Shown here piece after piece: positions 4,894-42,174 of a stretch of DNA of 42,225 nt. The first letter of the stretch is position 1. Every line of letters starts with the position of its first letter. Under the pieces are notes generated by a model. That model had not been told where the DNA came from. It searched no databases and saw nothing but the letters and a program-made list of their open reading frames with translations. This DNA comes from Pseudomonadota bacterium (GTDB lineage Bacteria > Pseudomonadota > Gammaproteobacteria > Burkholderiales > Burkholderiaceae_C). Position numbers and translations under genes: made by a program. Location of the stretch: positions 1 to 42,225 of the forward strand of contig JAJZEC010000034.1 of NCBI GenBank assembly GCA_021805825.1. The letters run 5' to 3'.

Positions 4894-4895
4894 CG

Positions 4896-20949: not shown

Positions 20950-21291
20950 TCAGGCGGCGGCGTCCTGCGCCGGCGCGGCCGCAGCTCTCGCAGCCTTCGC
21001 CGCCCGGCCGTCCACCACGTTGGCCTCGATCGCGCGCTGCACCTGCTCGAAGCCGCCCGGATAGGCACCCAGCACCGGGTCGGCGTTGCGCCGTGCGTAC
21101 ACGCCGCACAGCCGCTCATGCTCGTCACGCACGCTTTCGATCACGCGCGGCGCCAGCTCGCGCACCACCCGCACCGCTCCCTGCCCGTGCGCGGCCTCGA
21201 GGATCGGCACCTCGTGCGCGAACACCGCGGTGGCGATGTGTTCCATGTCGCGGTCGATCAGCACCGCCACCGTCTTGACGGACAGGCTCAT
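20950..21291 (-). CDS. Small head-region protein, function unknown
   Basis: A 113-residue protein starting at the ATG that overlaps the previous stop (TGATG); a GTG one codon upstream is possible. The N-terminal half has strand-helix elements (SLSVKTVAVLIDRDMEHIATAVFAHEVPILEAAHG). The middle is helical and charged (VRVVRELAPRVIESVRDEHERLCGVYARRNADPVLG) and the end is Ala-rich. It sits between the decoration-type protein and the adaptor, where head-completion or head-closure factors are encoded. I do not recognise the family and infer only a virion or assembly role. Confidence 0.6.
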   Translation of the reverse strand: MSLSVKTVAVLIDRDMEHIATAVFAHEVPILEAAHGQGAVRVVRELAPRVIESVRDEHERLCGVYARRNADPVLGAYPGGFEQVQRAIEANVVDGRAAKAARAAAAPAQDAAA

Positions 21292-21605
21292 CACGGGCCT
21301 CCCAGCAGGTAGGCGGAGACGGTGCCGGCGGTGCCGGCCGCGGTGACGTTCAGGCGCATCCAGGCCTGCACCGTCACGTCCTTCAGGACGGCCGGACCCT
21401 GTGTGGTCACGGTCAGCAGGTCGGTGTAGGCGACCCCGTCATCGGAGCCCTGCACCTTGACAGCGAACGCGCCGGTGCCACCTTCGGTCACGAGCAGGAT
21501 GGTGGTGTTGGTGCCGGGCAGGAACGGCGTGGTTTTGGGCCGCACGGCAGCCTGCGCGGCGGCGGCTGCCAGCGACACGCCGGAGCCGAGAACGAGGGTT
21601 TTCAT
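21291..21605 (-). CDS. Putative capsid decoration / head fibre-type protein
   Basis: A 104-residue protein. I chose the ATG at 21605 because GGAGG lies 6 bases upstream. It is beta-rich, with patterns of an Ig-like or jelly-roll head protein: NTTILLVTEGGTGAFAVKVQGSDDGVAYTDLLTVTTQGPAVLKDVTVQAWMRLNV, here seen as alternating hydrophobic strands. The first 20 residues are hydrophobic (LVLGSGVSLAAAAAQAAVRP) and could be misread as a signal peptide. The position right after the major capsid gene is where decoration proteins are encoded. The role is inferred from place and fold pattern. Confidence 0.62.
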   Translation of the reverse strand: MKTLVLGSGVSLAAAAAQAAVRPKTTPFLPGTNTTILLVTEGGTGAFAVKVQGSDDGVAYTDLLTVTTQGPAVLKDVTVQAWMRLNVTAAGTAGTVSAYLLGGP

Positions 21606-21681
21606 GGTGAACCTCCAGGCGGATGAGTGCTGCGGAGAAATGGCCATCCCTGGCCCCCCGCCGCACAAGGAGTTGTCCGGG

Positions 21682-22728
21682 TCAGGCGATCGCCAGCACC
21701 GCGTTGCTGCTGCGCTTGCTGCAGGTCAGGCGGTACTTGCTGGTCATGCCCCAGAAGTGCACGTAGCGGTCGTACAGCCGCTCCGGCTTGCGGTTGACCA
21801 TCCAGTGCCCGGACACCGGGCGCAGCACGATGCTGCGGCTGTTGAGGAAGTAGCAGCGCTTCGACCACGGCGTCGCCGGCGCGTACAGCTGGTCCAGCAC
21901 GTCGAAGCTGGGATCCCACACGATCTGCAGCCCCTTGAAGTACAGGTTGCTGATCGAGGCGTCCAGGCTCACGCCGCCCTTCTCGTTGCCGCCGCCCATG
22001 ATCTGGCGGTTGACGGTCTGGCCCGCCGCGTTGCGGTAGGCGTCGCAGAACGCGCTGCCGGCCACGATGAAGTCAGGCTTCATCTTTCCGATGCGGATGG
22101 TGTTGCGCCAGGCCTGCTCCATCTGGTCGATCAGGTTGGCGCCGGTCAGCGCGGTGCGCGCGTCATTGCGCCACCACGTGTACTGCGCGGCATCCAGGCC
22201 GCCCACCGATCCCACGGCCGGGGTCAGCGAAACGATGTGGTCGATGCCCGGGCAGGCCTTGGCCGACTGCGAGCCGTCCAGCAGCAGCTCCTCGTTGAGC
22301 TTTTCCTGCACGCCCATCTTCAGGGCGTTGTAGTTGGTCTTCAGCAGGTTGGTCAGCTGCAGCTTCTCGGCACCGGTGGCCACGGCCTCGCGGTCGTCGG
22401 TCAGGATGATGCCGTTGGCGGCAAGGGTGTCCTCGTCGAGTCCGAAGCCGTCGTGGAAGTTGTACCAGGCGTACTTGGCCTGCCGCACGGTGTCGCGCTG
22501 GTTGTAGCTCACCTGGTCGGCGCCGAAGTAGTTCTGGTAGTTGTTGTCGTTCTTGAAGTACACCTGCTCGGTGTAGAACTGGTTGCCGCCGGGCGCCTCC
22601 TGCTTGTGGGCGGTGAGCCAGAAAAACGTCGGGCGCTCGGTGTTGACCTGGTCCACCGGGTCGTTGCGGCGGAACACGTCCAGCTGGTAGTTGCTGCCGG
22701 TCTGCAGCTGCTGCGCGTTGAAAGGCAT
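21682..22728 (-). CDS. Major capsid protein (HK97 fold, BPP-1 type)
   Basis: A 348-residue protein with GAGGAC before the ATG. Its sequence (NDPVDQVNTERPTFFWLT, then DRYVHFWGMTSKYRLTCSKRS near the end) reads as the podoviral major capsid protein found next to scaffold genes in this phage type. A long helix region (EKLQLTNLLKTNYNALKMGVQEKLNEELLLDG) corresponds to the HK97 spine helix; YTWWRNDARTALTGANLIDQMEQAWRN and the following beta strands correspond to the A domain. It follows the scaffold after a 170-bp gap with a strong hairpin. A copy of the late element is at the start of that gap, 167 bases upstream, fitting extra expression of the most abundant virion protein. Confidence 0.82.
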   Translation of the reverse strand: MPFNAQQLQTGSNYQLDVFRRNDPVDQVNTERPTFFWLTAHKQEAPGGNQFYTEQVYFKNDNNYQNYFGADQVSYNQRDTVRQAKYAWYNFHDGFGLDEDTLAANGIILTDDREAVATGAEKLQLTNLLKTNYNALKMGVQEKLNEELLLDGSQSAKACPGIDHIVSLTPAVGSVGGLDAAQYTWWRNDARTALTGANLIDQMEQAWRNTIRIGKMKPDFIVAGSAFCDAYRNAAGQTVNRQIMGGGNEKGGVSLDASISNLYFKGLQIVWDPSFDVLDQLYAPATPWSKRCYFLNSRSIVLRPVSGHWMVNRKPERLYDRYVHFWGMTSKYRLTCSKRSSNAVLAIA

Positions 22729-22836
22729 GGCGATGTCCTCGAAGTGATCGGATGAACTCGATCCACGTCGAGGGGCGCGACGCCTCTTACATGCGCTACC
22801 GGACGCGACTCCGGCTCACTGGCTCACGTGGTGCGC

Positions 22837-22864
22837 GGGCCGCGGCGATTCTCCGCGGCGGCCC
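22837..22864 (-). other. Strong hairpin between scaffold and major capsid genes
   Basis: GGGCCGCGG and CCGCGGCGGCCC, around a CGATTCT loop, pair over 9 bp with a 3-base bulge. No T-run follows on the minus strand, so it is not a convincing terminator. It may be a processing or stability structure in the 5' leader of the capsid message. Confidence 0.3.
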
Positions 22865-22894
22865 GGCCGCACCATCAGCATGCACGTGCCGTTT

Positions 22895-22907
22895 GCTGGA
22901 TCAAGCC
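22895..22907 (-). promoter_or_regulatory. Repeated late element, copy 2 (before major capsid gene)
   Basis: GGCTTGATCCAGC on the minus strand; its TGA is the scaffold stop codon. It is identical over 13 bases to 5866..5878 and 28242..28254, and lies 167 bases before the capsid start. Function is inferred. Confidence 0.5.
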
Positions 22908-24097
22908 CCGCCGTTGGCAGCGGCGATGCCTGCTTCCAGCGCTTCCATGGGGTCGGTGTACTCGGCGCGCTGCATCGGCGCGCGCAGGCCGCCTGCAGGG
23001 CGCAGCGGCACATGCCCCACCGGTGCGCGCGGCGCGGGTGCCGGCGCCGCGGGCAGCGCGGGGATTTCCGCATAGGCGGCGCGCACCTCGTCCATCCAGC
23101 GCTCGGGCGGCATCGTCTCGCGGATGCGCCTGAGCACCGGCATCAGGAACGGCAGCTTGCGCTCGTAGTCCGGGTCCGCCGCGCGCAGCTGCTCGCCCAG
23201 CTGGTTCAGTCCGGTACGCGCCGTGTCCAGCGCGCGCTGCTGCTCGGCCTGCTGCCGGTCATGCTGCGTGCGCGTCGCCTGCAGGCGCACCGTCTGCCGC
23301 GCCTGGGCCAGCTCCACCGCGTGCCTGCGCGTCATGTCGCCCGCCTCCACCGCCTCGGCCAGGTCCGGGTGCTCGCTGAGCGGGTCGTGGATGCCGGGCG
23401 CCTCGCGGCCCAGCGCCTTGGCCAGCGTCTGCAGTTCCGCCTGCATCACGTCGTAGGCCTTGGCCAGCGCCTCGGGCGTGCCTGCGTTGACCATGCGCAG
23501 GTAGTCCATCGCCATGCCCATCTGCTGCGGGTTCGCGCCAGTGGACAGCACCATGCCTTCCCACTCGTCGGCCGCCTTCGCACGTTCGATCACGCGCGGC
23601 AGGTCGGCCGCATCCTTGATCCCGGCCTTCTCCATCGCCACCCGGAGCGGCCGCAGTTCGGCCAGCTCGCCGTGCATGGCGCGGAAGCGCTCCGCGGCCT
23701 TGGTCTTCAGCCCGAGCGAGCCGATTTCCTGCTCCGCGTCCTGCCGCTGCTGTGCCCTGGCGGCCTCCGCCGCGGAGGCCTGGTCCTCCGGCTTCGCCGG
23801 CGCGGCGTCACCGGGCTTGCCGCCCGCGTCGCCGGGCGCGGGCGGTTGGTCCCGCGCGTCCGCGTCGATCCGCTTCGGTGGCTGCGTATTGGCGGGTGTG
23901 GGGTCCGCCTGCCCTGCACCTGTCCCGGGACTGGCGTCGGCAATGCCGCGGTCCAGCGCCTCGGCCAGCTGGGCATCGAGGGTCGGCGGCGGCGCCTGCG
24001 TCCCGGCGGGCGCGGTGTCCGGTACGGGCGGCGGGGTGCCGGAAGCCGGCGCACTGGTGGCGCTGCCGGCGGCGTGCTGATCGGTCTGCGTGGTCAT
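22901..24097 (-). CDS. Capsid scaffolding protein
   Basis: A 398-residue protein with GAGGA before the ATG. It has a Pro/Ala-rich disordered N-terminus (~1-110) and then long charged helices (EIGSLGLKTKAAERFRAMHGELAEL, DMTRRHAVELAQARQTVRLQ, RDPDYE-type region, RRIRETMPPERWMDEVRAAYAEI). The C-terminal end is short, YTDPMEALEAGIAAANGGA. Composition and place between portal and capsid genes are those of podoviral scaffolds. The last ten residues nearly repeat the start of the portal protein (ALDAGIAAAN), suggesting a shared docking peptide. It would direct capsid assembly and leave the prohead. Confidence 0.8.
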   Translation of the reverse strand: MTTQTDQHAAGSATSAPASGTPPPVPDTAPAGTQAPPPTLDAQLAEALDRGIADASPGTGAGQADPTPANTQPPKRIDADARDQPPAPGDAGGKPGDAAPAKPEDQASAAEAARAQQRQDAEQEIGSLGLKTKAAERFRAMHGELAELRPLRVAMEKAGIKDAADLPRVIERAKAADEWEGMVLSTGANPQQMGMAMDYLRMVNAGTPEALAKAYDVMQAELQTLAKALGREAPGIHDPLSEHPDLAEAVEAGDMTRRHAVELAQARQTVRLQATRTQHDRQQAEQQRALDTARTGLNQLGEQLRAADPDYERKLPFLMPVLRRIRETMPPERWMDEVRAAYAEIPALPAAPAPAPRAPVGHVPLRPAGGLRAPMQRAEYTDPMEALEAGIAAANGGA

Positions 24098-24112
24098 CGC
24101 TGTGGTCCTCGT

Positions 24113-26245
24113 TTACGGGCTGCCGTTTCCGGCCGGGGTCATCGGTGGCTGCGGCGCCGGCGGTGGCGCATGCCCCGCGACCATTGCGCCGGGCGGCACG
24201 GCCGCTGGCGGCGGCAGCGCCACGGGCACGGGTTGCTGCGCGCCTTCGCGCGGGATGAAGCGGTCCGGGTCGGTGTGGTCGCCGGCGCGCGCGAAGGTCT
24301 CGCGCAGCAGCGCCTCGGCGCGGTCGGCCATGTCGTCCGGCGTCGATTGCCGCAGCGCGCCGATGGTCTGGATGCCCTGCTGCAGCAGCGGCAGCAGCGT
24401 GGCCCATGCCTGGCGGTCGGCCGTGGTGTTGGGCTTGCCCGAGCTGCCGGCGCGGATCGTCACGCCCACCAGCGCCGGCAGGTCGTCCACCGTCATCCCC
24501 TCCGGCCAGAACGCATCATCGCCCGCAATGGCACGCACGTCGCCGGCGTCCATCTGCAGCAGCGCCACCTCGGCGGTGTACTGCGCCAGCTCGCCCAGCG
24601 CGTCCTCCAGCACGTCGCGCATCGCGCCGGTGCGCGCGTGGAACCCGGTCTGCTGGATCTGCGCCTCGGTGGCGGTCTTGGCCGTCTGGATCGACTGCGA
24701 CAGCGCCTCCTGGATGCCCCAGATGCGCTCCATCTCACCCATGATGCTCTGCGTCTCGTACAGCATCGGGTCCAGCTGCGCGTAGGTCACGGGCGCGAAC
24801 AGCGTGCGGATGTCGGCTCCCGGCTGGATCGGATCCACGCCCACCATCTCCTGCGTCACGGCGCTTTCGACGCGGCGCGCGTCTTCCGGGCTCAGCAGTC
24901 CGCGGTTGAACACCGTCTTGGGCCGGGTACGCCGGCGATGCTCCGCAAACGCGCTGCGCACGCGGCTGTACTCGTCCTGCAGCTTGTGGCTGCGCCACAC
25001 CAGCGACTGCGGGTGCCGCTCGCCGTCGATCTCGCCGATCGCCAGCTGGAAGAACGGATAGAACCGCGTCGCCGCGTCCGGCGCATAGGGCCTGCGCACC
25101 CAGCGGTCGATGCCCTCGACCGCAGTCAGCACCGCGTTGGCGTCGCGGTCCCAGATTTCCTCGACGCGCACGTAGTCGAAGCCGTCGCCCCCCTGCGGCT
25201 GCGCCCCGCCGCCGCCCGTGGCCGATTCGTAGCCGTCGGCGTCCTCCGGCCGCACGTCGTCGGCATCCATCGCCGTGTCCTTGCCGTGCGCGGTCTGCGG
25301 CTTGCGCATGCGCCAGCGCGCCGCCTTCACCATGTCCTGCTGCGGCAGCCCGAACTGCGCCTGCGCGTCCTCCGCGCGCAGGAAGGCGCGGTGCGCGATC
25401 CACGGCGCGTCCAGGTACTCGGCCAGCAGCACGCCTGGCGCCACCTGCACGTCCTCGGCCTGCACCAGGTCGATCACGAAGCCGCGCGCGATGACACGCT
25501 CCACCCTGGTCTCCAGGCTGGCCAGCACGCGCTGGTACTCGGCCTGCTTCGCATCGCAGTCCGCCCGCCCGGGCTCATCCTGCAGCTGCTCGCGCAGCGC
25601 GGCCACGCGGCGGATGTTGTCCTGCAGGTCGGCGATCTGCTGCTGCGTGATCGGGTCCGGCGCCGTGCGTGTCTGCCAGGTGGCCTTGAGCCAGCCGGTG
25701 CCGATGGTCAGCGCGGAGCGCACCCAGCGCTTGGCGTGCCGCTTCATGCGGCCATCCCGCCACAGCCGCGACACGACAATGGCCAGCGTGTCAGCGAACG
25801 CCTTGTTGTCGCGCTGCCGCTGCTCGTAGCGGGCGCGCAGCCCCTCGAAGCGCGCGCGCACGGCCGCAGGGTCGGGTCCGGCACCGCCCGCCGCGTCCTC
25901 CGCCGTGTCGCGCAGCGCCTCCATGTCCGGCGGCTCGGCGCTGGGTGCCGTGGTCACGTCCACGTCGGGATCCTGCGCGTACAGGAACGCCACCAGGATG
26001 TCGATGAACGTGCCGATCAGGTTGGTGTCCACCTCGAAGCCGCTGTCGCCACGCGCATAGCGGCGGTCGCGCGCGTACTGCTTGCGCGCCTCGGCATCGA
26101 ACTTCCGCGCCTCCTCGATGCGGCGCAGCCACGCCTGCACGTCGGCCTTCTCGCGCTCGCGCGCGCGGCCGGCGTCATCCGGCGCGTTGGCCGCGGCGAT
26201 GCCGGCGTCCAGTGCCTGTTCCGGTGTCGCCCGGGTCGGGTCCAT
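24113..26245 (-). CDS. Portal protein
   Basis: A 710-residue protein, GAGGA before the ATG, 10 bases after the terminase stop. The start (TPEQALDAGIAAANAPDD) leads into a helical region, then the podoviral portal body: RRYARGDSGFEVDTNLIGTFIDILVAFLYAQDPDV near residue 55, HAKRWVRSALTIGTGWLKATWQTR near 175, FVIDLVQAEDVQVAPG, TRFYPFFQLAIGEIDGERHPQS and later SIMGEMERIWGIQEALSQSIQTAKTATEAQIQQTGF. Length fits P22-sized portals. It forms the dodecameric DNA channel at the head vertex and binds terminase, scaffold and adaptor, all encoded beside it. Confidence 0.86.
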   Translation of the reverse strand: MDPTRATPEQALDAGIAAANAPDDAGRAREREKADVQAWLRRIEEARKFDAEARKQYARDRRYARGDSGFEVDTNLIGTFIDILVAFLYAQDPDVDVTTAPSAEPPDMEALRDTAEDAAGGAGPDPAAVRARFEGLRARYEQRQRDNKAFADTLAIVVSRLWRDGRMKRHAKRWVRSALTIGTGWLKATWQTRTAPDPITQQQIADLQDNIRRVAALREQLQDEPGRADCDAKQAEYQRVLASLETRVERVIARGFVIDLVQAEDVQVAPGVLLAEYLDAPWIAHRAFLRAEDAQAQFGLPQQDMVKAARWRMRKPQTAHGKDTAMDADDVRPEDADGYESATGGGGAQPQGGDGFDYVRVEEIWDRDANAVLTAVEGIDRWVRRPYAPDAATRFYPFFQLAIGEIDGERHPQSLVWRSHKLQDEYSRVRSAFAEHRRRTRPKTVFNRGLLSPEDARRVESAVTQEMVGVDPIQPGADIRTLFAPVTYAQLDPMLYETQSIMGEMERIWGIQEALSQSIQTAKTATEAQIQQTGFHARTGAMRDVLEDALGELAQYTAEVALLQMDAGDVRAIAGDDAFWPEGMTVDDLPALVGVTIRAGSSGKPNTTADRQAWATLLPLLQQGIQTIGALRQSTPDDMADRAEALLRETFARAGDHTDPDRFIPREGAQQPVPVALPPPAAVPPGAMVAGHAPPPAPQPPMTPAGNGSP

Positions 26246-26255
26246 GATGCGGTCC

Positions 26256-27860
26256 TCAGCGGTAGTAGCGTTCGCGCGCGGCGCGGCCGGCCTCGTCGGG
26301 CTGCCGGTCGAACCACGCCTCGGTGAAGGGTTGCGGGGCGCGGTTGACCTTCGGCGCCGGCACCCGCGCGTTGCTCAGGCGGTCCAGCGCGCGGCCGATC
26401 AGGCCGCACACGTCCACCGCGTCATCCGGCGCACCCGGCGTCGGGAATGCCACCAGCTGCTCGAGCAGACGCTGCGCCCACGCCATGCCCCGCGGCAGGT
26501 GCACGCGGCCGGCCTCGCAGTACGCACGGAACGACTGCGCGCGTGCGGTCTTGTCGCCCACGGCCGGCAGCAGCTCGCGCGCGCAGCGCACCCGCCGCTC
26601 GGCCATCGCGCGCTCGATCGCCGGACCGATGGATGCCTCGATCACGCCGCGCTCGCCGTACCACACCAGTGCCGGCCCGTGCTGGTCCAGCAGCGCCAGC
26701 GCGGCGCGGATGCTGGTGTCGGTCGCCTCGCGTCCGCTCCACCAGTCCAGCGCCCACAGATCGCCCTCCACACACACACCCCATACGCCGTGCTCGGTCC
26801 AGTCGCCGGCCCCGGCGGTCACGGCGAAGTCGCTGGCCATGTAGCGCGACAGGTGCGCGGGCAGCTCGTCCGCGCCGTACCAGCGGATCCACTCGCGGCG
26901 GAACAGCGTGCCGGATGCCACCACCGGCGTCTGCTGGTACAGCGCCTGCCAGGTGCGGCGCGCGGCCGGCGCCGGGCTGTCCTCCACCAGCCGCCAGTGC
27001 GCAGCGTCGAACCACTCCGGCCACAGGTATTCGCCAGGCCTGCGCCCCACCGGGTCATCCTCGCGGTCGGCGCGCGCGGGGATGCGCAGCACCTCCCACA
27101 CCATGCCGTCGCGGCAGCGCACCGGCCCACTGCGCCCGTCGTAGTCCTCCGGCAGGATCATCCCGGCCAGGTCGTGGACGGCCCAGCGGGTCATCATCAG
27201 CACCGTCCAGCCGCCCGGCACCAGCCGCGTCTGCAGGTCGTCCTGGTAGGCGTCCAGCGTCTTGAGGCGCACCGCCTCGGACTCGGCCTCCTCCCGGCCC
27301 GCCACCGGGTCGTCGATCACCAGCCCGTCGGCGCGGTTGCCCGTGATGCCGGCGAGGATGCCGGCCGCCATCAGCTCGCTGCCGCTGGTCAGTGCCCAGG
27401 CTTCGACCGCCGACTGGTCCTTGGGCAGATCCGCGCCGAAGATCCCGCGGTACACCGGGCTGCGGCAGATCTGCCGCGCGCGCCGGCTCTGCTTTGCCGC
27501 GATCTGCGTGGCGTAGCTGGCCAGGATCACGCGCGCGCCGGGCCGCGCGCCCATGAACCACGTCGGTGCCACCACGCTGGCATAGCTCGACTTGGCCGAA
27601 CCGGGCGGCGCGAAGATCATCAGCCGCCCGTAGCGCGTCGTCATGCAGCGCTGCAGCGCGCGCAGGATCACGCGATGGTGCAGCGCCAGCGGGCTCTCGA
27701 CCGGCGCGAACATCCAGGCATCCGGGTCGGCGCTCACCGGGCGCCCGGGCACATCCACCGCCTGCGCATAGTCCTCCAGGCTCACCCGCGCACGCCGCCG
27801 GCGCAGCAGCTCGGCCGCCGCGCGCCCGCCGTCCGCCGCGCGCGCCGCCACGGCGCTCAT
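26256..27860 (-). CDS. terL: Terminase large subunit
   Basis: A 534-residue DNA-packaging motor. ATPase domain: Walker A FAPPGSAKSS near residue 83, an IxASYATQIAAKQSRRARQI helix, Walker B DGLVIDDPV near 178, and coupling motif LMMTRW near 222. The RNase H-like nuclease follows, with first acid in MASDFAVTAGAGDW near 342 and last acids in PDDAVDVCGL near 482. Length and motifs are those of complete podoviral TerL proteins. The ATG overlaps the small terminase stop by 4 bases. It translocates and cuts DNA at the portal. Confidence 0.92.
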   Translation of the reverse strand: MSAVAARAADGGRAAAELLRRRRARVSLEDYAQAVDVPGRPVSADPDAWMFAPVESPLALHHRVILRALQRCMTTRYGRLMIFAPPGSAKSSYASVVAPTWFMGARPGARVILASYATQIAAKQSRRARQICRSPVYRGIFGADLPKDQSAVEAWALTSGSELMAAGILAGITGNRADGLVIDDPVAGREEAESEAVRLKTLDAYQDDLQTRLVPGGWTVLMMTRWAVHDLAGMILPEDYDGRSGPVRCRDGMVWEVLRIPARADREDDPVGRRPGEYLWPEWFDAAHWRLVEDSPAPAARRTWQALYQQTPVVASGTLFRREWIRWYGADELPAHLSRYMASDFAVTAGAGDWTEHGVWGVCVEGDLWALDWWSGREATDTSIRAALALLDQHGPALVWYGERGVIEASIGPAIERAMAERRVRCARELLPAVGDKTARAQSFRAYCEAGRVHLPRGMAWAQRLLEQLVAFPTPGAPDDAVDVCGLIGRALDRLSNARVPAPKVNRAPQPFTEAWFDRQPDEAGRAARERYYR

Positions 27861-28216
27861 GGCCTCGCCTTGGCCCCGGCCAGTGCCAGTGCCAGCAGCT
27901 GCTCATCGGTCAGCTCGTGCAGGCTGCGCGTCTCGATCGGGCCGCCGCCCTCGCCGCTGATCGGCTGCGTCGGCCTGCCCCAGCCGCGGTCCAGCAGCAG
28001 CTCGGCCGCGCGTGCCCGTGCGGCCGCGGGCTCGTCCCCGTCGCGCATGATGCCGGCCAGCGCCGCGATCGCATCCTCGGTGTGCGTGCGCGCCAGTTCG
28101 CGCACGTGGCCGAGGTCCGCGCGCCTGCCCGAGGGGTTGCCGCTCTGGCCCTTGCGGAACGGCCGCCCCGGGCCTCGCCCGCGCGGCCTCGCTGTGGGTG
28201 TCCTGGCATCCGTCAT
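27857..28216 (-). CDS. terS: Putative terminase small subunit
   Basis: A 119-residue protein with the start put at the ATG at 28216; a GTG 7 codons upstream is possible. The basic N-terminus contains FRKGQSGNPSGRR, the signature of the DUF5681 family often found next to TerL. Helices follow (HVRELARTHTEDAIAALAGIMRDGDEPAAARARAAELLLDRGWGR). It overlaps TerL by 4 bases. It should recognise phage DNA and start packaging. A copy of the late element lies 26 bases before its start. Confidence 0.78.
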   Translation of the reverse strand: MTDARTPTARPRGRGPGRPFRKGQSGNPSGRRADLGHVRELARTHTEDAIAALAGIMRDGDEPAAARARAAELLLDRGWGRPTQPISGEGGGPIETRSLHELTDEQLLALALAGAKARP

Positions 28217-28239
28217 GGTGCCCAGCGTGGCAGGCACGG

Positions 28240-28258
28240 GCGCTGGATCAAGCCACGC
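28240..28258 (-). promoter_or_regulatory. Repeated late element, copy 3 (before terminase genes)
   Basis: GCGTGGCTTGATCCAGCGC on the minus strand, identical over 19 bases to 5864..5882. It overlaps the stop of the previous gene (TGA inside the motif) and sits 26 bases before the small terminase ATG, at the border between early replication genes and late morphogenesis genes. It is proposed as a late-gene control site. Confidence 0.5.
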
Positions 28259-28607
28259 GGCTGATGCTGGCGAACTCCGCCGTCAAGTCTTCCGCCACAC
28301 GGGCCTCGACCAGGCCGCTGCGCGCACGGGTATACACCCCTACCAGCAGGTCGATGCGCGAACGCAGCAGGCCTGGCAGCGCGCTGTGCCCATCCCCCAG
28401 CACGTACACGCCGATGCGGCCGCAGCCATCCACCGGCGCCGCGAACACATAGGCCCGTGCATCGCACGTGCGCAGCAGCCAGCCCATGCGCCGCGCGACG
28501 GCTGCGGCCGCGATCGCCGCGCCGGCCGCGGATCGCTCCACCGTGGCAACGGGTGCGACGTCACGCGTACGGCGATGGGCGTGGCGGTTGTAGGTGTGCG
28601 CGGTCAT
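28248..28607 (-). CDS. Hypothetical early protein
   Basis: A 119-residue protein. Its ATG overlaps the RusA stop by 4 bases, so it is part of the early leftward operon. A basic N-terminus (HTYNRHAHRRTRD) is followed by an Ala-rich helix (AAGAAIAAAAVARRMGWLLRTCDARAYVFAAP). Then comes a small beta region (GRIGVYVLGDGHSALPG) and helices. No family is recognised. As the last gene before terminase it occupies the place where late-gene activators are often encoded, but I see no helix-turn-helix or zinc motif. Confidence 0.6.
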   Translation of the reverse strand: MTAHTYNRHAHRRTRDVAPVATVERSAAGAAIAAAAVARRMGWLLRTCDARAYVFAAPVDGCGRIGVYVLGDGHSALPGLLRSRIDLLVGVYTRARSGLVEARVAEDLTAEFASISRVA

Positions 28608-29047
28608 GCCCCGTCCTCCATCATCGCGACATGGATCACGGCACCCACGAAATCCACGCTGCCGGGGCTATCGAAGGCGTACACCTTGGCCAGACGGGTG
28701 AACTCCACCACGCGCGCATCGTCGGCGATCAGCCCCGCATCCGTGAGCGCGTCCATGGTGGACCGCAGCAGCTTGTCCAGGTCCGGCTTGCGGTCGGGAT
28801 GCCTGCGCGACTTTGGCGCGCTGGCCGGCCGCGGCAGCGCGAACACCATCCGTACCGACAGCGGCCCGTCCAGCGGCCGCGTGATGCGCTGCGCGCACAT
28901 GGTTCCGATCGCGGCCCACTTCACCGCTTCGCGCCATGGCGCCACGCGCTTGCTCGACTCGACCATCACGCCGTGGCCCACGTGGCGCTTGCTGCCCTGC
29001 GGCGCCGGCAGGCCATGCACGTGGAAGTAGCACTCGCGCGCGCTCAT
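28604..29047 (-). CDS. rusA: Holliday junction resolvase RusA-like
   Basis: A 147-residue protein with the RusA pattern. The N-terminal strand FHVHGLPAPQGSKRH is followed by VRMVFALPRPASAPK and the metal-binding signature KPDLDKLLRSTMDALTDAGLIADDARV, containing the conserved Asp residues. RusA dimers cut four-way DNA junctions, resolving replication and recombination intermediates before packaging. Length is slightly above E. coli RusA (120). It is encoded directly after the replication loader, 4 bases downstream of it, as in many lambdoid phages. Confidence 0.88.
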   Translation of the reverse strand: MSARECYFHVHGLPAPQGSKRHVGHGVMVESSKRVAPWREAVKWAAIGTMCAQRITRPLDGPLSVRMVFALPRPASAPKSRRHPDRKPDLDKLLRSTMDALTDAGLIADDARVVEFTRLAKVYAFDSPGSVDFVGAVIHVAMMEDGA

Positions 29048-29051
29048 GCCG

Positions 29052-29591
29052 CTACCCCCGCAGTTCCGCCTCGATCCGCGCCAGATGCGCGCGCGCCTGC
29101 TCGGCCGTCGCGGGCGGCTTGCACTCTGGCTGCTGCTGGCTGATCGCAGCCAGTGGTTCGTCCGGCAGCGGCTCGCCGCGCATCACCGCCTCGCGGGTCA
29201 GCTCGTAGGCCTCGCGCAGCATGCGGTCGGCGCGGTCGGCGTCGGCGCGCTGGTAGGCCCATCCGTCCAGCCGCGACCACACCGCGCGGGTGAACGCGCT
29301 CACTGCCGGCGCACCGGGCCGCACTTCGGCGCGCACTACTGCCAGCGCCGGGATGCCGAGCGCCAGCGCGCGGAACTCCGGCAGCGTCGGCGGCCACGGC
29401 TCGCCGCTCGCCAGACAGCGGTCGATGCCCTCGCCGATCTGCACCGGCGTCAGCCCAGCGAGCCCGCGCGCCCAGGTGTCGCCGGCCACGGTCAGCGTGC
29501 CCTCGCGTTCGGGCGCCTCGCCGTAGGCGCTGGCCCAGCGGTGGCCGTAGATCGCGGCCATGCGCTCCCACAGGCGGCGCAGCCAGCGCAC
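29052..29591 (-). CDS. Replication protein P-like (helicase loader)
   Basis: A 179-residue protein. I chose the GTG at 29591, one base after the stop of the DUF1376 gene; the frame upstream is Ser/Ala-rich noise. The start VRWLRRLWERMAAIYGHRWASAYG and the block TWARGLAGLTPVQIGEGIDRCLASGEPWPPTLPEFRAL are typical of phage replication protein P-type factors, which bring the host replicative helicase to the phage origin. A helical tail with FTRAVWSRLDGWAYQRADADRADRMLREAYELT follows. Pairing with the upstream O-type gene supports the call. Confidence 0.72.
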   Translation of the reverse strand: MRWLRRLWERMAAIYGHRWASAYGEAPEREGTLTVAGDTWARGLAGLTPVQIGEGIDRCLASGEPWPPTLPEFRALALGIPALAVVRAEVRPGAPAVSAFTRAVWSRLDGWAYQRADADRADRMLREAYELTREAVMRGEPLPDEPLAAISQQQPECKPPATAEQARAHLARIEAELRG

Positions 29592-29592
29592 A

Positions 29593-30618
29593 TCAGGCCG
29601 GGAGTCGCTGCAGGGCGGGATGCTCGATGACGTTGCCGGCACGGTGCTCGCGGTCGTCGTCGCGCTCGTCGGCTTCGCGGTTGATGCGCTCGACGCGCTC
29701 GCACAGGCTCTCGCGGCGGCCGCCGCTGCGTGCAGGGGTCTGCTCATGGTCACGGTCTCGGGTGAGGGGAAACAGCCCGCGCCAGCCGCGCAGGGCGGAT
29801 TGCTCGAGCACGGCGCCGGGGTCGTTGCCGGCGTCGCGCAGCCTGGCCAGCGCGGCGATCGCCAGCGTCCTGGCCTTGGGCGTCAGCGGTGCGCGGATGG
29901 CGCGGCGCGCCTCGATCCACGCCGCCCACGCCGCGCCGGGGATCCACTCGGGCAGCACGTTGCCGGCGTCACGTGGCGGTGCCGTGGCGCGCCGTGGTGT
30001 CTTGGCCTGCGGCGGGTCGGCGGGTGGCGGGTCGGCGGCCTGCGGTGGCTCCGCCGGCGGGTCAGCGGACGGCGAGGGTGGCTGTGCATCCAGCGCGGCC
30101 CACGGGTTGGCAGGCGGCACTGCCGGCCTGGGTGGCGCTGCGTCCGCTGCCGGAACCCCACCCGCGGCAGCGGGGGGGTGGAGTTCCCGAAGGGAACGAG
30201 GGGGGGTTATGGTGTCTGGTGTCTGGTGAGCTTTTCGCTGGGTTTCTGATTTGGAACCCGGCGAAAACCCACCGGGTTCTTGCTTGGTTCCATTTGGGTT
30301 ATTCCGTGGGCGCCCACCGCGGCGGCCGTTCTCCCGTGCCGCGTTGATCCTGGTTTGGGCCTTGCCAATCTCTGCGTCTGCACGTGCGTTCGTCCAGCCG
30401 CCATCGACAAGCCGGAAAAACTCGGCGAGCACCGCATCGACGGCGGCGCGCTCCAGCTTCGAAAGCGCGCGTGCGATGCGGTAGACCTGCGCGGCCGGGA
30501 TGGGCGCCTCGGTCGCGTAGTAGCGGTCCAGCAGCAGCCCATAGGCGCCGTGCTCGAGCATGCTCAAGTGCCCTGTGTCGCGCGCGTAGTCGCCCAGGTG
30601 GCGCTCGTAGTAGTTCAT
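29593..30618 (-). CDS. DUF1376 (YdaU-type) phage replication protein, O-like
   Basis: A 341-residue protein; the ATG at 30618 overlaps the previous stop (ATGA). The N-terminal DUF1376 domain (residues 1-~95) shows NYYERHLGDYARDTGHLSMLEHGAYGLLLDRYYATEAPIP, a winged-helix-type DNA-binding region. A basic stretch (ARENGRRGGRPRNNPNGTKQ) and a very long Pro/Ala/Asp linker (~150-230) follow. The C-terminal helical domain (PEWIPGAAWAAWIEARRAI ... LEQSALRGWRGLFPL) is typical of prophage replication initiators. It should bind the phage origin, possibly within its own gene (not identified), and work with the P-like protein next to it. Confidence 0.8.
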   Translation of the reverse strand: MNYYERHLGDYARDTGHLSMLEHGAYGLLLDRYYATEAPIPAAQVYRIARALSKLERAAVDAVLAEFFRLVDGGWTNARADAEIGKAQTRINAARENGRRGGRPRNNPNGTKQEPGGFSPGSKSETQRKAHQTPDTITPPRSLRELHPPAAAGGVPAADAAPPRPAVPPANPWAALDAQPPSPSADPPAEPPQAADPPPADPPQAKTPRRATAPPRDAGNVLPEWIPGAAWAAWIEARRAIRAPLTPKARTLAIAALARLRDAGNDPGAVLEQSALRGWRGLFPLTRDRDHEQTPARSGGRRESLCERVERINREADERDDDREHRAGNVIEHPALQRLPA

Positions 30619-30959
30619 CGGGCGCCCCCCGGCATCCAGGTCAGCGCCAGCCGCCCCGTCACCGTGCAGCAGCGCAGCGCGGCGCGGCACACATGCCCTG
30701 CCCGCTCGATCTCCGGCAGGCGCCGCGCCAGCATGTAGCGGTCCAGCCGCGTCAGCATCGCCAGCTCGAAGCTGGTGTGGCCCGGAAACGCGCGCACCGC
30801 AGCGGCGGCGTGGTCCTGCTGCGCCAGGCGGCGGCCGCTGCGCGCCATGTGCGCCGCCGCGGCGCGCGAGCTTGCAGGATCGGTGCGACGCGCGGCTGGC
30901 GCGTCACGGTTGCCGCGCTGGAGCGCTCCGCAACCGGCCGGGATCGCGTTGGCCATCAT
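30615..30959 (-). CDS. Hypothetical early protein
   Basis: A 114-residue protein; the ATG at 30959 has GGAGG upstream and overlaps the previous stop. It is Ala/Arg-rich and has six cysteines or so spread out rather than in a metal-binding pattern (GCGALQ, GHVCRAALRCCTV). The central helix-rich part reads FPGHTSFELAMLTRLDRYMLARRLPEIERAGH. No family is recognised. It is tightly coupled within the early operon between a small DNA-binding-type protein and the replication initiator, so an early regulatory or replication role is likely. Confidence 0.55.
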   Translation of the reverse strand: MMANAIPAGCGALQRGNRDAPAARRTDPASSRAAAAHMARSGRRLAQQDHAAAAVRAFPGHTSFELAMLTRLDRYMLARRLPEIERAGHVCRAALRCCTVTGRLALTWMPGGAR

Positions 30960-31183
30960 TCCCCGTTCCTCCCTTGTGCGCCGCCCGCCGTCCACTCCAG
31001 TCCCTCGGTGGCCAGCAGGCGCGGCAGTAGGCTGGCCGTCCGCATTTCCATGGCAGCCCAGCGATGCAGCACGTCACGGACGATTTCCGAGTAGTCGAGG
31101 CCAGTCGCGCGGGCGCGCGCCTGCAGCACACACCAGGTTTCGGGTGTCACCTTCGCGCGCAGGTCCTTGAGCGGCAGCGACAT
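30956..31183 (-). CDS. Small protein, possible ribbon-helix-helix-type regulator
   Basis: A 75-residue protein. The first 45 residues, LKDLRAKVTPETWCVLQARARATGLDYSEIVRDVLHRWAA, have the strand-helix-turn-helix spacing of Arc/MetJ-type ribbon-helix-helix proteins: V-x-P-E-x-W then A-x-x-x-G-x-x-x-S-E-I-x-R-D-x-L. The tail is not conserved-looking. It is the second gene of the leftward operon, 3 bases after the Cro-like gene. A role as a DNA-binding early regulator is inferred from the fold pattern only. Confidence 0.62.
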   Translation of the reverse strand: MSLPLKDLRAKVTPETWCVLQARARATGLDYSEIVRDVLHRWAAMEMRTASLLPRLLATEGLEWTAGGAQGRNGE

Positions 31184-31186
31184 GGC

Positions 31187-31453
31187 TCAGGCGGCCTCGC
31201 GCTGTCCCGGGAGACGCACGCGGTAGCCCAGCACCCTGCCCCGCGCGTCGCGCTCCCAGATCACGTCGGGGCGCATTTCCTCGCAGAGGACGGCTCCGCC
31301 CGTGGCGGCCTCGATCGCCGGGCAGCGGCCCAGCGGCACACGGCGTCCGCGCCAGCCGGAGGCCATCTGCCACAGGTAATCGGGCGATGTGTCGAGCGCT
31401 TCCGCGAGCGCGCGCCGGCGGCCTTGGTCGGAGATGAATTCGATGAGCGTCAT
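31187..31453 (-). CDS. Cro/YdaS-like transcriptional regulator
   Basis: An 88-residue protein with a short HTH domain: TLIEFISDQGRRRALAEALDTSPDYLWQMASGWRGRR, in the style of the YdaS family (helix, RRRALAxAL, SPxYLWQMASG). VPLGRCPAIEAATGGAVLCEEMRPDVIWERD follows, the conserved end of YdaS-type proteins that reads as a Cro-like dimer arm. It is transcribed divergently from cI. The promoter TAGCAT ends 10 bases before the ATG, leaving a leader of only a few bases. It should bind the CTAG operators between itself and cI and favour lytic growth. Confidence 0.82.
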   Translation of the reverse strand: MTLIEFISDQGRRRALAEALDTSPDYLWQMASGWRGRRVPLGRCPAIEAATGGAVLCEEMRPDVIWERDARGRVLGYRVRLPGQREAA

Positions 31454-31463
31454 GACGCGCAAC

Positions 31464-31492
31464 ATGCTAGACACGTCTAGCAATAGTGTCAA
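31464..31492 (-). promoter_or_regulatory. Early leftward (cro) promoter
   Basis: On the minus strand TTGACA (31492..31487), exactly 17 bases, then TAGCAT (31469..31464). The -35 box is a perfect consensus. The predicted transcript starts about 3-4 bases before the Cro-like ATG at 31453. The spacer and -10 box are covered by the operator palindrome 31466..31481. Confidence 0.78.
31466..31481. promoter_or_regulatory. Operator palindrome over the cro promoter
   Basis: GCTAGAC, AC, GTCTAGC: a perfect 7-2-7 inverted repeat whose two CTAG cores are 10 bp apart, one helical turn. It covers the -10 region of the leftward promoter. The likely ligand is CI or the YdaS/Cro-like protein. Confidence 0.75.
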
Positions 31493-31515
31493 GCGTACAG
31501 CTAGCGCGACGGCTG

Positions 31516-31530
31516 CTAGCGCCGCGCTAG
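31516..31530. promoter_or_regulatory. Operator palindrome next to cI
   Basis: CTAGCGC, C, GCGCTAG: a perfect 7-1-7 inverted repeat with CTAG cores 11 bp apart, 11 bases before the cI ATG. A further GCTAGC lies at 31500..31505. The possible cI -10 box TAGACT (31528..31533) overlaps its right half, which would let CI or Cro control cI itself. Confidence 0.65.
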
Positions 31531-31541
31531 ACTGCGGACCC

Positions 31542-32288
31542 ATGCAGCCACTGCGCGATACCCGGCGGAACAACCTTGCGGCGCTGGTCACCCAGACCGG
31601 CGGGCAGGCCGCGCTGGCCGCGCGTCTTGGGCGCGATCGCAACCAGGTCTACCAGTGGCAGCTTCCCGTCGAATCGAAAGCCAGCCGCGGCATCGGCGAT
31701 CGCGTCGCACGCGAGATCGAACACCTGCTCGATCTGCCGTCCGGATGGATGGATGCCGACCACACCTCCGCGCAGACGCAAGTGCCATCCGCCACGGCCA
31801 TGACTGACGGCACAGCGCACGCAACTGCGGTTCGCGTCGCAGCCGATGAACCGGAACCCGGCTACGTTCGCCTGCCCTTGATGGACGCACACGTCGCCGC
31901 AGGCATGGCCATCCACAACCCGCAGTTCACGGGCGAAATCGTCGCCCACGTCGATGTCCTCAAGGACTGGGCCGACCGCGAGCTGCGCGCGCCCATCGGG
32001 TCGATCCGCGTCATCACCGCGCGCGGCGACTCCATGGTGCCCGACGTGCAGGACGGGGACGTGCTGTTCGTGGACACCGGCGTCACCCGCTACGTGAGCG
32101 ACGCCATCTACATCATCACCTACGCCGGCCGGCCGATGGTCAAGCGCCTGCAGGCGCGGCGCGACGGCAGCGTGCTCATCCGCAGCAGCAACCCCGCCTA
32201 CGAGCCGGAGGTCGTGTCCGCCGGCGAGGTGGACCAGCTGCATGTCGCCGGCCGCGTGCTGGTGGCGTGGACGCTGCGGAGGTTTTAG
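31542..32288 (+). CDS. cI: CI-type repressor (HTH + S24/LexA-like peptidase)
   Basis: A 248-residue protein. The N-terminal HTH is at about residues 8-45 (NNLAALVTQTGGQAALAARLGRDRNQVYQWQ). After a linker, the C-terminal S24 domain begins with YVRLPLMDAHVAAG. It has the catalytic Ser in TARGDSMVPDVQDGD (~164) and the Lys in AGRPMVKRLQ (~202), so RecA-stimulated self-cleavage is expected; an Ala-Gly cleavage site is visible at HVAAG. The ATG follows a possible -10 box (TAGACT) by 8 bases with no ribosome site, suggesting leaderless translation as for lambda cI. It should bind the CTAG operators and keep the prophage silent. Confidence 0.9.
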   Translation: MQPLRDTRRNNLAALVTQTGGQAALAARLGRDRNQVYQWQLPVESKASRGIGDRVAREIEHLLDLPSGWMDADHTSAQTQVPSATAMTDGTAHATAVRVAADEPEPGYVRLPLMDAHVAAGMAIHNPQFTGEIVAHVDVLKDWADRELRAPIGSIRVITARGDSMVPDVQDGDVLFVDTGVTRYVSDAIYIITYAGRPMVKRLQARRDGSVLIRSSNPAYEPEVVSAGEVDQLHVAGRVLVAWTLRRF

Positions 32289-32350
32289 AGGCGAGACGGA
32301 CGCAGGCAACGCCAACCGGTACACTGCAATCACCGTTCTGGACTAGCTCC

Positions 32351-33727
32351 GTGATCGCACAGAAAAGTGACCTACCGTTCGGCAGCGAGTTCTCGCCATC
32401 GCAGATCGAACTGCCGCGTCTGCTCGAGATCGCTCACGCTCACGAAGGAGACCCAAAGGCGCTGCAAGACGCCATCCGCGCGACCTATTTCTCGACGCAC
32501 GGCGGCGGCGGCACGAAGAACCAGAACACCCTAGCCATGAACTGTCGGCTAGGCATGCGCGCCTATGGTCTCATTGACGATGACGCCAATCTGACCGCCT
32601 TCGGCCGCGCTCTCCACGACAGCCGCAGCGATAGCGCACAGCTATACGACAAGCTGGCAGCGCACATCCTCCTAAACCTCAAGGGCATGGCGCTCGTGCG
32701 CTGCATCCAGGAGATGACTATCGCAGGCGAGCGCGTCACGCTCGACACCTTGCGCCACGCGCTCGAAGAGCGCGAGATTCACTTTCCGAAGGGCGGCAAG
32801 CACCCAAGCATGATGCGCCTCTGGCTTGAGAAGGCCAGAGTCTTCGCCCCTAATAGCTGGCGCGTGAACGAGGTAAGGCTGCGCGACCTCACCGGCACCG
32901 ATACCAACGAATTCGCTGTTTTGGCGCGCTTCACACCCGAGCAACGCGCCTTCCTCCTGGCCCTCGCAAACAGCGGCATCACCGACTCACGGCCTGCCAA
33001 CGTCATCCGCGACCTCGCGGCGGCAACCTACGGCGTCCGTTTCCCTGACAAGAATCTGCCGCAAGCCGTGCTCAACGCGCTACGCGATGCCGGTTACATC
33101 ACTTTCACCAAGACCACCGGCGGGCGCGGCGGCAAGCCGATGGAGGTGACGCCAACGGCGAAGCTGCGCGCTGATCTGGTGCAGCCATTGCTCGACCAGC
33201 TCAAGGCCCGTCTAGACCCAAAGCTCATCGACCTCCTGACGAAGCCGCTGGCCACCATCCTCAAGGATCTCGACGACGAGGACAAACATCGCGCAGGCCT
33301 CGCCCTGGAAGCCCTCGCCTTCCATCTCATGCGCATCCTGGGCATGGACTACATCGCCACGCGACTGCGGAACATCTCCGCGACCGGCGGTGCAGAGGTG
33401 GACCTCATCTTCCACTCGGCCCGTCTCGTCTATTCCCGCTGGCAGGTGCAGTGCAAGAACACCGCTCGTGTTTCCCTCGATGACGTGGCGAAGGAAGTCG
33501 GGCTAACCCACTTCCTCAAGAGCAACGTCATCGTAATGGTGAGCACCGGAGACATTGGCGGCGATGCTCGTCGCTACGCCAACAAGATCATGCAGGACTC
33601 GAATCTCAGCGTCGTGATGATCGACCGCCCCGACCTGGAGGCAATCAAGACGAACCCAGCCTCAATCGTTGATGCCTTCAAACGGGAGGCGCAGAACGCA
33701 ATGACCCTAAAGCAGTTGGACTTATGA
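32351..33727 (+). CDS. Restriction endonuclease (Mrr-like catalytic domain)
   Basis: A 458-residue protein from the GTG at 32351; an upstream GTG at 32267 would overlap cI. The N-terminal two thirds are helical, with DNA-binding-type winged-helix segments (LRHALEEREIHFPKGGKHPSMMRLWLEKARVF; IRDLAAATYGVRFPDKNLPQAVLNALRDAGYITFTKT). The C-terminal domain has a PD-(D/E)xK nuclease pattern: GGAEVDLIFH near residue 348, then RWQVQCKN near 365, and a following strand SNVIVMVSTG, as in Mrr-like enzymes. It overlaps the methyltransferase by 4 bases. This pair should cut foreign DNA lacking the partner's methyl mark. GC is clearly lower than in the structural genes, suggesting separate acquisition. Confidence 0.8.
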   Translation: MIAQKSDLPFGSEFSPSQIELPRLLEIAHAHEGDPKALQDAIRATYFSTHGGGGTKNQNTLAMNCRLGMRAYGLIDDDANLTAFGRALHDSRSDSAQLYDKLAAHILLNLKGMALVRCIQEMTIAGERVTLDTLRHALEEREIHFPKGGKHPSMMRLWLEKARVFAPNSWRVNEVRLRDLTGTDTNEFAVLARFTPEQRAFLLALANSGITDSRPANVIRDLAAATYGVRFPDKNLPQAVLNALRDAGYITFTKTTGGRGGKPMEVTPTAKLRADLVQPLLDQLKARLDPKLIDLLTKPLATILKDLDDEDKHRAGLALEALAFHLMRILGMDYIATRLRNISATGGAEVDLIFHSARLVYSRWQVQCKNTARVSLDDVAKEVGLTHFLKSNVIVMVSTGDIGGDARRYANKIMQDSNLSVVMIDRPDLEAIKTNPASIVDAFKREAQNAMTLKQLDL

Positions 33728-34878
33728 GGACACGCACCGTGAAGGAAGAACCCCAGAAGCCACGGCTGTTCCACAAGGCCAAGCACGGGAAGATTTTCCT
33801 CGGCGACAGCCTCGACGTCATGGCTGCGATGAAATCGGGAAGCGTTGATCTGGTAATGACGAGCCCGCCCTTCGGTCTAGTGCGCAAGAAGGAATACGGC
33901 AACGCTGACTCTCACGAGTATCTCGAATGGTTCAAGCCGTTCGCGGAGCAGTTCCGGCGCGTACTGAAGGACAGTGGCAGCCTCGTCATTGACATCGGCG
34001 GCGCCTGGATTCCCGGTCAGCCTACGCGTAGCCTGTATCACTTCAAGCTGCTCATCATGCTGTGCGAAGAGTTCGGCTTCCACCTCGCGCAGGAGTTCTA
34101 TTGGTGGAGCCCATCGAAGCTACCCACCCCGGCTGAATGGGTGACAGTCCGCCGCATCCGCGTGAAGGACGCTATCAATACGGTCTGGTGGCTTTCTAAA
34201 ACCCCATGGCCGAAGGCCAGCAATCGCCGCGTATTGCAGCCCTACAGTCCAAGCATGAGGGATTTGCTCGCGCGCGGCTACAAGGCGAAGAAGCGCCCTT
34301 CGGGGCACGACATTAGCGAAAAGTTCGCTATCGACAACGGCGCCGCCATTCCACCGAACCTTATCGCTCTGCCCAATACAGAGAGTAACGGCTTCTATCA
34401 CCGCTACTGCCAGGAGAATGGCATCAAAGCGCATCCTGCTCGCTATCCCGCCGAACTTCCCGAATACTTCATCCGTATGACCACAGATGAAGGTGACCTC
34501 GTGCTCGACCCGTTCGGCGGCAGTTGCGTCACTGGCGAAGTCGCCGAGCGCCTTAAGCGCAAGTGGGTGTGTGTCGATCTCAGCATGGAATATCTCGAAG
34601 GCGCGCTCGGCCGTTTCACGCCTGACAATGTGGCGGCACTCGCGGCGCGTGCCTCAGTCGCCGCAAAGATCGACGATGAGTCCAACTACTACAAGCTTCC
34701 CCGCCCCGGCATCCTCTGGAACGGCAGCCACGGAGACACGCTTCCTGAGGATGGCGGAAAGAAGCGTGTGATTAAGCCTTCGGGATCTGCAGCGCCCTCA
34801 AAGTCGATACTGTACGACTCTACTGATGCAGAATCACTACCAATTGCAGCAATTGGATATAATCAAGTCCTCCGATGA
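33724..34878 (+). CDS. DNA methyltransferase (beta class, N4-cytosine/N6-adenine)
   Basis: A 384-residue enzyme. Motif IV DLVMTSPPFGLV is near residue 42 and the AdoMet motif I DLVLDPFGGSCVTG is near residue 257, the IV-before-I order of beta-class methyltransferases. The Ser-Pro-Pro-Phe form is most often seen in N4-cytosine enzymes. The target-recognition region lies between them (RRIRVKDAINTVWWLSKTPWPKA, FYHRYCQENGIKAHPARYPAELPEYFI). It is translationally coupled to the endonuclease (ATGA). It protects host and prophage DNA. About 57% GC in sampled lines and near 40% at the 3' end, unlike the phage core. Confidence 0.88.
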   Translation: MRTRTVKEEPQKPRLFHKAKHGKIFLGDSLDVMAAMKSGSVDLVMTSPPFGLVRKKEYGNADSHEYLEWFKPFAEQFRRVLKDSGSLVIDIGGAWIPGQPTRSLYHFKLLIMLCEEFGFHLAQEFYWWSPSKLPTPAEWVTVRRIRVKDAINTVWWLSKTPWPKASNRRVLQPYSPSMRDLLARGYKAKKRPSGHDISEKFAIDNGAAIPPNLIALPNTESNGFYHRYCQENGIKAHPARYPAELPEYFIRMTTDEGDLVLDPFGGSCVTGEVAERLKRKWVCVDLSMEYLEGALGRFTPDNVAALAARASVAAKIDDESNYYKLPRPGILWNGSHGDTLPEDGGKKRVIKPSGSAAPSKSILYDSTDAESLPIAAIGYNQVLR

Positions 34879-42109: not shown

Positions 42110-42126
42110 ACGCGACCCGCTGGAAC

Positions 42127-42174
42127 TGGCGCCCGAAGTAGGACTCGAACCTACGACCCCCTGATTAACAGTCA
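42127..42174. repeat. attR: Right attachment site (attR)
   Basis: The second copy of the 48-bp repeat at 62..109, forming the 3' part of the intact tRNA-Asn gene and including the anticodon loop. The phage copy restores the tRNA. The junction of phage and host lies within these 48 bases, and bases after 42174 are host. Confidence 0.93.

Follow-up and report, generated by a model that had tools for sequence, protein, structure and literature searches.

A short repeat before the late modules of a prophage as the probable extended -35 region of three late promoters

What is the role of a 13-base sequence that stands, in the same orientation, before three different late modules of one prophage? 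The question arises in the window, by which we mean the whole 42,225-nucleotide stretch of DNA that was analysed, and for most temperate phages other than the model ones we know of no described mode of late control. A prophage makes up the window, its ends marked by an attachment-site repeat in tRNA-Asn(GTT), at 54-109 and 42119-42174. Its minus strand carries, in this order, a gene for a 119-aa protein (p119), a gene in the small-terminase position, the large terminase, the portal, a gene for a 398-aa protein and the major head protein, followed by more structural genes, a 3029-aa protein, spanins and an endolysin (Table 1). The other strand carries an Mrr-like restriction endonuclease domain beside a DNA methyltransferase (32267-34878, plus strand), and the pair is likely a restriction-modification cassette carried by the prophage. 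A tRNA-Ala called by ARAGORN at 29355-29447 (minus strand) lies inside an ORF and does not appear in the Rfam search; it is likely a false call.

Table 1. Positions in the window of the late genes, the putative late promoters and the prophage landmarks
Feature	Position	Strand	Remarks
tRNA-Asn(GTT)	42127-42203		
Integrase gene	40321-41277		
119-aa protein gene (p119 family)	28248-28607	minus	Adjoins the first putative late promoter
-35 TTGATC, putative late promoter 1	28246-28251	minus	In repeat copy 28242-28254; TGA is the stop of the 119-aa gene
-10-like CACGCT, putative late promoter 1	28224-28229	minus	16 bp downstream; predicted start about 28217
Small-terminase-position gene	27857-28216	minus	ATG at 28216; weak DUF5681 match slightly below the cut-off
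-35 TTGATC, putative late promoter 2	22899-22904	minus	In repeat copy 22895-22907; TGA is the stop of the 398-aa gene
-10-like CATGCT, putative late promoter 2	22877-22882	minus	Predicted start about 22870
Structured capsid mRNA leader (predicted)	22729-22825	minus	A hairpin followed by two covarying helices that cross
Major capsid (head) protein gene	21682-22728	minus	phrog_9953
3029-aa protein	5846-14935	minus	Matches several families of giant phage proteins, among them one named DarB-like antirestriction
-35 TTGATC, putative late promoter 3	5870-5875	minus	In repeat copy 5866-5878, within the final codons of the 3029-aa gene
-10-like CAGCAT, putative late promoter 3	5848-5853	minus	Predicted start 5841, the first base of the ATG
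First lysis-cassette gene (132 aa)	5443-5841	minus	Inner-spanin-like by eye
Rz-like spanin	5174-5491		Downstream of the first lysis-cassette gene
Endolysin	4288-5193		Downstream of the first lysis-cassette gene

A preliminary description of this DNA had reported the repeat, judged it very unlikely to be due to chance, and proposed that it is a late-control signal, either a promoter element with a phage activator or a site of antitermination or processing at the RNA level. Its observations hold up well. The 13-mer GGCTTGATCCAGC is present without mismatch on the minus strand at all three places (Table 1), the 19-mer GCGTGGCTTGATCCAGCGC is common to the first and third copies, and the distances of 26, 167 and 25 bases to the next gene are correct for the ATGs at 28216, 22728 and 5841. 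The copies also lie at the 3' end of the preceding gene as had been claimed, the first two contributing its stop codon and the third falling within its last codons. The statement about chance was too strong for the repeat taken alone: 16 different 13-mers occur at least three times on the same strand, compared with a mean of 2.6 in 60 sequences simulated by a second-order Markov model, and on a composition-aware score the motif reaches -8.85, the best simulated motif -8.78, and a window 10-mer, at -9.37, ranks above it. Repetition by itself is thus evidence of limited weight, modest to moderate at most, so that position and relatives have to decide the case. What seems unlike chance, in our judgement, is that all three copies share the coding strand with the late genes, each at a gene end and just before the next module. 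Chance, recent duplication, or a module-boundary sequence that promotes recombination between phages would be compatible with the 16 triplicated 13-mers and with copies at module borders, but these explanations leave the spacing to the ATG unexplained, and relatives have other sequences at the same places with the same spacing to a -10-like hexamer (see below); we give them next to no credence.

A scan of the 3,349,292-base host genome found the 13-mer nowhere but at its three window sites, and the only additional window match with up to two mismatches is on the plus strand (25683-25695). Seven copies were found in total across 27 other genomes of the genus, and a motif-only scan of viral contigs with a 15-mer returned at least 120 stretches with one match each. 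A fourth exact copy in a close relative (locus L142, G399:C92:33613-33625) lies on contig C92 and not on the contig of its prophage. The window box is close to a dyad, GCTTGATCCAGC being symmetric by eye at 10 of 12 positions, but the dyad is not kept in the boxes of relatives and is for that reason not treated as a defining feature.

Each copy contains TTGATC, followed after 16 bp by a hexamer of the form CANNNT. With a probability of roughly 0.7, we read the copies as the extended -35 regions of three late promoters, TTGATC-N16-CANNNT, probably used together with a phage factor. Taken on its own, the reading of the copies as promoters is very probable, and a phage-encoded specificity factor that reads the box is likely as well, somewhat less firmly. 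Under this reading the three promoters would separately drive the packaging, major capsid and lysis genes; they would be read by host RNA polymerase together with the phage-encoded factor, which would recognise the sequence around TTGA and activate them. The likeness to a sigma70 promoter is partial, with four of six positions matching in the -35, a spacing of 16 and a poor -10: among 25 sites the hexamer begins with C in 19 and with T in two. A simple sigma70 scan of 21000-31000 found no promoter. A weaker fourth site of the window, near 33935 on the minus strand and on the early side, matches the box at 10 of 13 positions and has the hexamer.

The search for related prophages drew on alignment-based searches that gave 107 further loci, with some contigs represented more than once; a search of viral contigs with the capsid protein alone returned nothing, and alignments were required. 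One close relative (L129, genome G399) keeps all three copies at matching borders, in aligned blocks that are 88-98% identical, mostly about 95%, and retention at such identity would by itself be weak evidence. Relatives with 47-59% capsid identity are more informative in two ways: no window-type box (at least 11 of 13 positions) with a hexamer at 16 bp was found in them, and they have a repeated box of their own. The phage L148 in genome G422, for example, shares 53% identity with the window in the terminase, 50% in the portal and 59% in the capsid protein, and its record gave no match to the window 13-mer with fewer than three mismatches. It has a 13-14-mer of its own, ACATGCCGTTGAC(G): one copy falls in the end of the 119-aa homologue, another immediately follows the 398-aa homologue, and a near-copy stands before the spanin region, directly after a hairpin with a T run. 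Own-box sites number three in G422, three plus one early in G423, five in each of G426 and G427, and three in each of G428 and G433 (one of the latter with TTTA). In all seven phages, the window included, a site precedes the capsid gene and another lies near p119; each phage has at least three promoter-like units, as judged by sequence. The remaining sites lie further along the late block, except for an early-side site of G423 (7100) and the weak window site near 33935. Only for the window, G422, G427 and G428 could lysis or spanin homologues be recognised after the third site. A ninth phage among those compared, G432, has one site only, before the capsid gene and with TTGACA.

More distant capsid relatives were left out of these box counts (G282, G162, G316, G089, G082, G186 and G105). 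The 13-mer has no match with fewer than two mismatches in the stretches compared for G282, G162, G316, G089 and G082, and none with at most one mismatch on the capsid contig of G186 or near the capsid gene of G105; some of these genomes do have exact copies at other places, with at least three in G082 among the matches listed. Many distant relatives (loci L170-L263) carry TTGACA with TANNNT at 18 bp, about 140-200 nt upstream of their capsid genes.

The sites share TTGA, the 16-bp spacer and NANNNT, although A2 and T6 of the hexamer entered into the selection of sites. When the box was the sole criterion (10 or more of 13 positions, TTGA kept, capsid site excluded), 38 own-box sites were obtained in eight phages; in these NANNNT stands at 16 bp in 19 and at 17 bp in seven, and at any other spacing from 10 to 22 in at most three. 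There is also a bias towards the late strand: for boxes matching at 11 or more positions in the seven phages, capsid sites again excluded, the hexamer is found at 16 of 25 sites on the late strand compared with 1 of 16 on the opposite strand. A box taken from another phage yields few hexamer-coupled sites unless it is similar to the phage's own.

The start codons check the position of the -10 independently, since the ATG was not used in choosing the sites. At 9 of 18 non-capsid sites the hexamer is followed at 6-7 nt by an ATG that opens an ORF of at least 45 aa, compared with 4 of 128 background sites (TTG-N19-NANNNT, ATG at 5-8 nt); the Fisher value of 4e-7 is optimistic because the phages are related. 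This count omits the capsid sites and the near-duplicates G399 (of the window) and G426 (of G425); it scores as a miss the G427 site 43166, which has an ATG at 6 nt but an ORF that leaves the record, and does not contain the G433 site 24632. Adding the seven capsid sites gives 9 of 25. At other sites the next start is 26-29 nt away (some in G425, G427 and G428) or not close, and for the capsid gene it is about 140 nt away. In the window, the predicted start of promoters 1 and 3 falls at the ATG or 1 nt before it, which means that the first genes of these units would be translated from leaderless mRNA. The ATG of the small-terminase-position gene stands 7 nt after the -10, so that this gene is predicted to be leaderless or nearly so, and a leaderless start for both it and the first lysis gene seems to us somewhat favoured by this layout.

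A phage factor that reads the box would account for its constancy within a phage and its variation between relatives, where about four types are seen: GGCTTGATC in the window, TGCCGTTGACG, TGCGCTTGANT in G428, and CC[CG]TTGAAG in G427 and G433. The types are not unique to each phage, a TGCCGTTGACG-like box being common to G422, G423, G426, L159, L160 and L162. We compared the box on the p119 side with every capsid box among 14 phages that have a 119-aa homologue and a 16-bp capsid promoter, over ten flanking positions with TTGA left out and with L164 dropped as a near-duplicate of L178. The diagonal sum, for pairs from the same phage, was 78, compared with a mean of 44.8 and a maximum of 75 after permutation (0 of 20,000 permutations as high), a value that is again optimistic given the relatedness of the phages. 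Four of the phages with p119 (L200, L165, L163 and L157) have no such site near it and contribute nothing to this test, and in L148 and L178 the p119-side site is closer to the capsid boxes of other phages than to their own (9 versus 8).

This agreement bears on the possibility that the sites are plain sigma70 promoters of the host, the repeat reflecting no more than selection for a -35 hexamer in a GC-rich phage, with no phage factor involved. TTGA does supply four of the six -35 positions; 7 of 19 loci without detected p119 have TTGACA and TANNNT before the capsid gene (spacer 18 in five, 16 in two), and across 80 loci 30 of 79 TTGAC occurrences have NANNNT at 18 bp. However, host promoters alone leave unexplained why the flanks and the last two -35 bases are common to the promoters of one phage, and why the -10 begins with C, where T would be expected, at 19 of 25 sites. 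We regard such promoters as a distinctly unlikely account of the window sites.

The main rival to activation is repression, in which the oriented box on the late -35 would be an operator that silences the late genes in the lysogen. It ranks as the main rival because the stoperators of Cluster A mycobacteriophages are likewise short, asymmetric, oriented and variable between phages; in passages of two studies they are described as 13-bp, asymmetric sites, oriented with transcription, whose consensus varies along with the repressor (PMC9283540, PMC6550527). The present box resembles them in these respects: it is short and oriented, for the most part asymmetric, and differs from one phage group to another. 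The same passages put the stoperators at more than 20 per genome, most of them away from promoters and with early promoters included among the sites (PMC9283540, PMC6550527), whereas here there are far fewer, with three to five box sites with a -10 per phage, nearly all late and coupled to the -10 at a fixed distance. Moreover, an immunity repressor should act on early promoters, and the early region of the window holds no site at 11 or more of 13 positions (one at 10). Operators of a repressor therefore appear unlikely to us, though they deserve to be taken somewhat more seriously than host promoters alone.

The other half of the earlier proposal, a Q-type antitermination or RNA-processing site on the late transcripts, fares less well. 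In lambdoid phages, Q and the late promoter lie in a region matching the place of the first copy, and p119 itself occupies the position of Q. Yet there are several separate promoter-like units per phage and not a single late promoter; the predicted start, which coincides with the ATG at 9 of 18 sites, comes downstream of the box; and no member of an antitermination family was found among the 40 window ORFs scanned in PHROGs or for p119 and its homologues. Terminator-like hairpins within 80 nt upstream accompany 8 of 30 sites in the window and its relatives compared with 60 of 1,200 random spans. None of the eight belongs to the window, the count includes the near-duplicates G425 and G426, and one match (G426, 38532) is weak. 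These hairpins and the several separate units make antitermination very improbable. Of the original alternatives it is thus the promoter element with a phage activator that fits best, the activator being deduced: the -35 is paired, always 16 bp away, with a hexamer resembling a -10, and the relatives' own boxes share this layout, while an RNA-level site finds no support, as the conserved unit reaches as far as a DNA-level -10 and half of the non-capsid predicted starts coincide with an ATG.

Which protein might read the box? No homologue of a known late activator was found among the 40 window ORFs scanned in PHROGs. The 119-aa family is present in eight of the nine phages compared, in seven by an all-against-all comparison and in the window by tblastn; none was found in the G432 record even at E 10. 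An HMM finds the family in 15 non-redundant ORFs of the loci. We tallied p119 against the capsid promoter in 28 de-duplicated loci that extend 2.2 kb or more upstream of the terminase: loci with the family have a 16-bp capsid promoter in 9 of 9 cases, with a -35 other than TTGACA in 8 of 9, and the 19 loci without detected p119 have a 16-bp spacer in two (both with TTGACA), another spacer in seven and no call in 10. This association is confounded by descent. The place of p119 in the circuit is also not uniform, since the promoter lies at the 5' end of the gene and not at the 3' end in L162, G427, G428 and at one G433 site. The protein has no Pfam match, weak PHROG matches of unknown function and no recognisable DNA-binding domain; models of it are mixed alpha/beta (pLDDT 79 for the window protein, 83 for the L180 homologue), and at E <0.001 Foldseek returned no PDB match for either of the two and none in BFVD for the window protein. 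On these grounds p119 is a tentative candidate for the factor that reads the box, and we think its having this role possible but doubtful. A YdaS/Cro-like gene (31187-31642), considered separately as a regulator, was set aside; it lies on the early side and not beside the late genes, and occurs in five of the nine phages.

The stretch between promoter 2 and the capsid ATG is conserved in sequence and structure, and promoter 2 would make a structured leader of about 140 nt before the capsid gene. Three helices, two of which cross each other, were scored in an alignment of 16 phages: 92.8% of cells are paired, compared with a mean of 82.2 in shuffles, and double changes number 17, compared with a shuffled mean of 3.4 (none of 500 shuffles reached this count). 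The signal peaks clearly at zero slide. The helix 34-37/55-58 comes from RNAalifold and the others were drawn by eye. A model built from the first hairpin and this helix matches 31 of 70 sources, once in each and ending close to the capsid start; 15 of the 31 lie outside the training set, some being near-duplicates of it, and the other 39 gave no match at E 0.05. Folding of the 182-nt capsid leader is mildly better than that of shuffled sequences (z -1.72, 10 of 200 as good). The Rfam search gave no gathering-level match, only two at chance level far below gathering. The leader may be called a candidate new RNA family, covarying and apparently pseudoknot-like. The bases immediately preceding the ATG could, in 10 of the 16 phages, form a stretch of 6-8 pairs with the 3' arm of one helix, but there is no double change in the three alignable pairs of this alternative helix, and for that reason a translational switch is offered as a suggestion only.

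The preliminary description contained neither the spacing to a -10, nor the leaderless layout, nor the structured capsid leader. A scheme that joins all of these, in which p119, with no known DNA-binding fold, would steer host RNA polymerase to CANNNT promoters with a diversifying -35 box, and one trigger would produce different modes of translation through leaderless packaging and lysis mRNAs and a capsid mRNA restrained by a pseudoknotted leader, is speculative, and we think it unlikely to be right in full.

Multiple late operons under one phage factor are known from P2 Ogr and other late activators. The Ogr site lies near -55 and has dyad symmetry, unlike the box described here, which sits on the -35 and is mostly asymmetric. 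In lambda PRE the recognition sequence of CII, TTGC-N6-TTGC, flanks the -35; by eye, no CII-like direct repeat with a consistent phase was seen around the -35 across these phages. The classic leaderless mRNA of a phage is that of lambda cI. Closer to the present case, passages of a study of Mu describe the late promoters lys, I, P and mom as activated by C and as having non-consensus -10 and -35 elements (PMC4461284), so that there too several late operons of one phage are preceded by the same short site. The C site is placed there upstream of the -35, overlapping it at mom (PMC4461284), whereas here the box contains the -35; a further difference from Mu is the constant 16-bp spacer, and the 40 window ORFs scanned in PHROGs gave no C-like protein. 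A -10 directly before the ATG, giving mRNA without a 5' UTR, is described for Deinococcus-Thermus (PMC12340547); here the predicted leaderless genes are the first genes of phage late operons and an extended -35 box is present. The titles and abstract openings in the part of the literature covered contained no account of the late promoters or the capsid-leader RNA of these phages. As read from sequence, the repeat would be a new version of an arrangement that is already known, multiple late promoters under phage control, here with an unnamed regulator.

What began as a repeat seen by eye has become a rule that finds promoter-like units in seven phages, the window included, despite a changing box, and it names a candidate family for the regulator. 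It suggests that phages diversify the specificity of their late promoters somewhat as they do their immunity; if this is true, two phages sharing a cell would be unable to switch on one another's late genes whenever their box types differ. Testable ideas on how such phages may set the ratios of their proteins come from the structured capsid leader and from the packaging and lysis mRNAs that are predicted to be leaderless.
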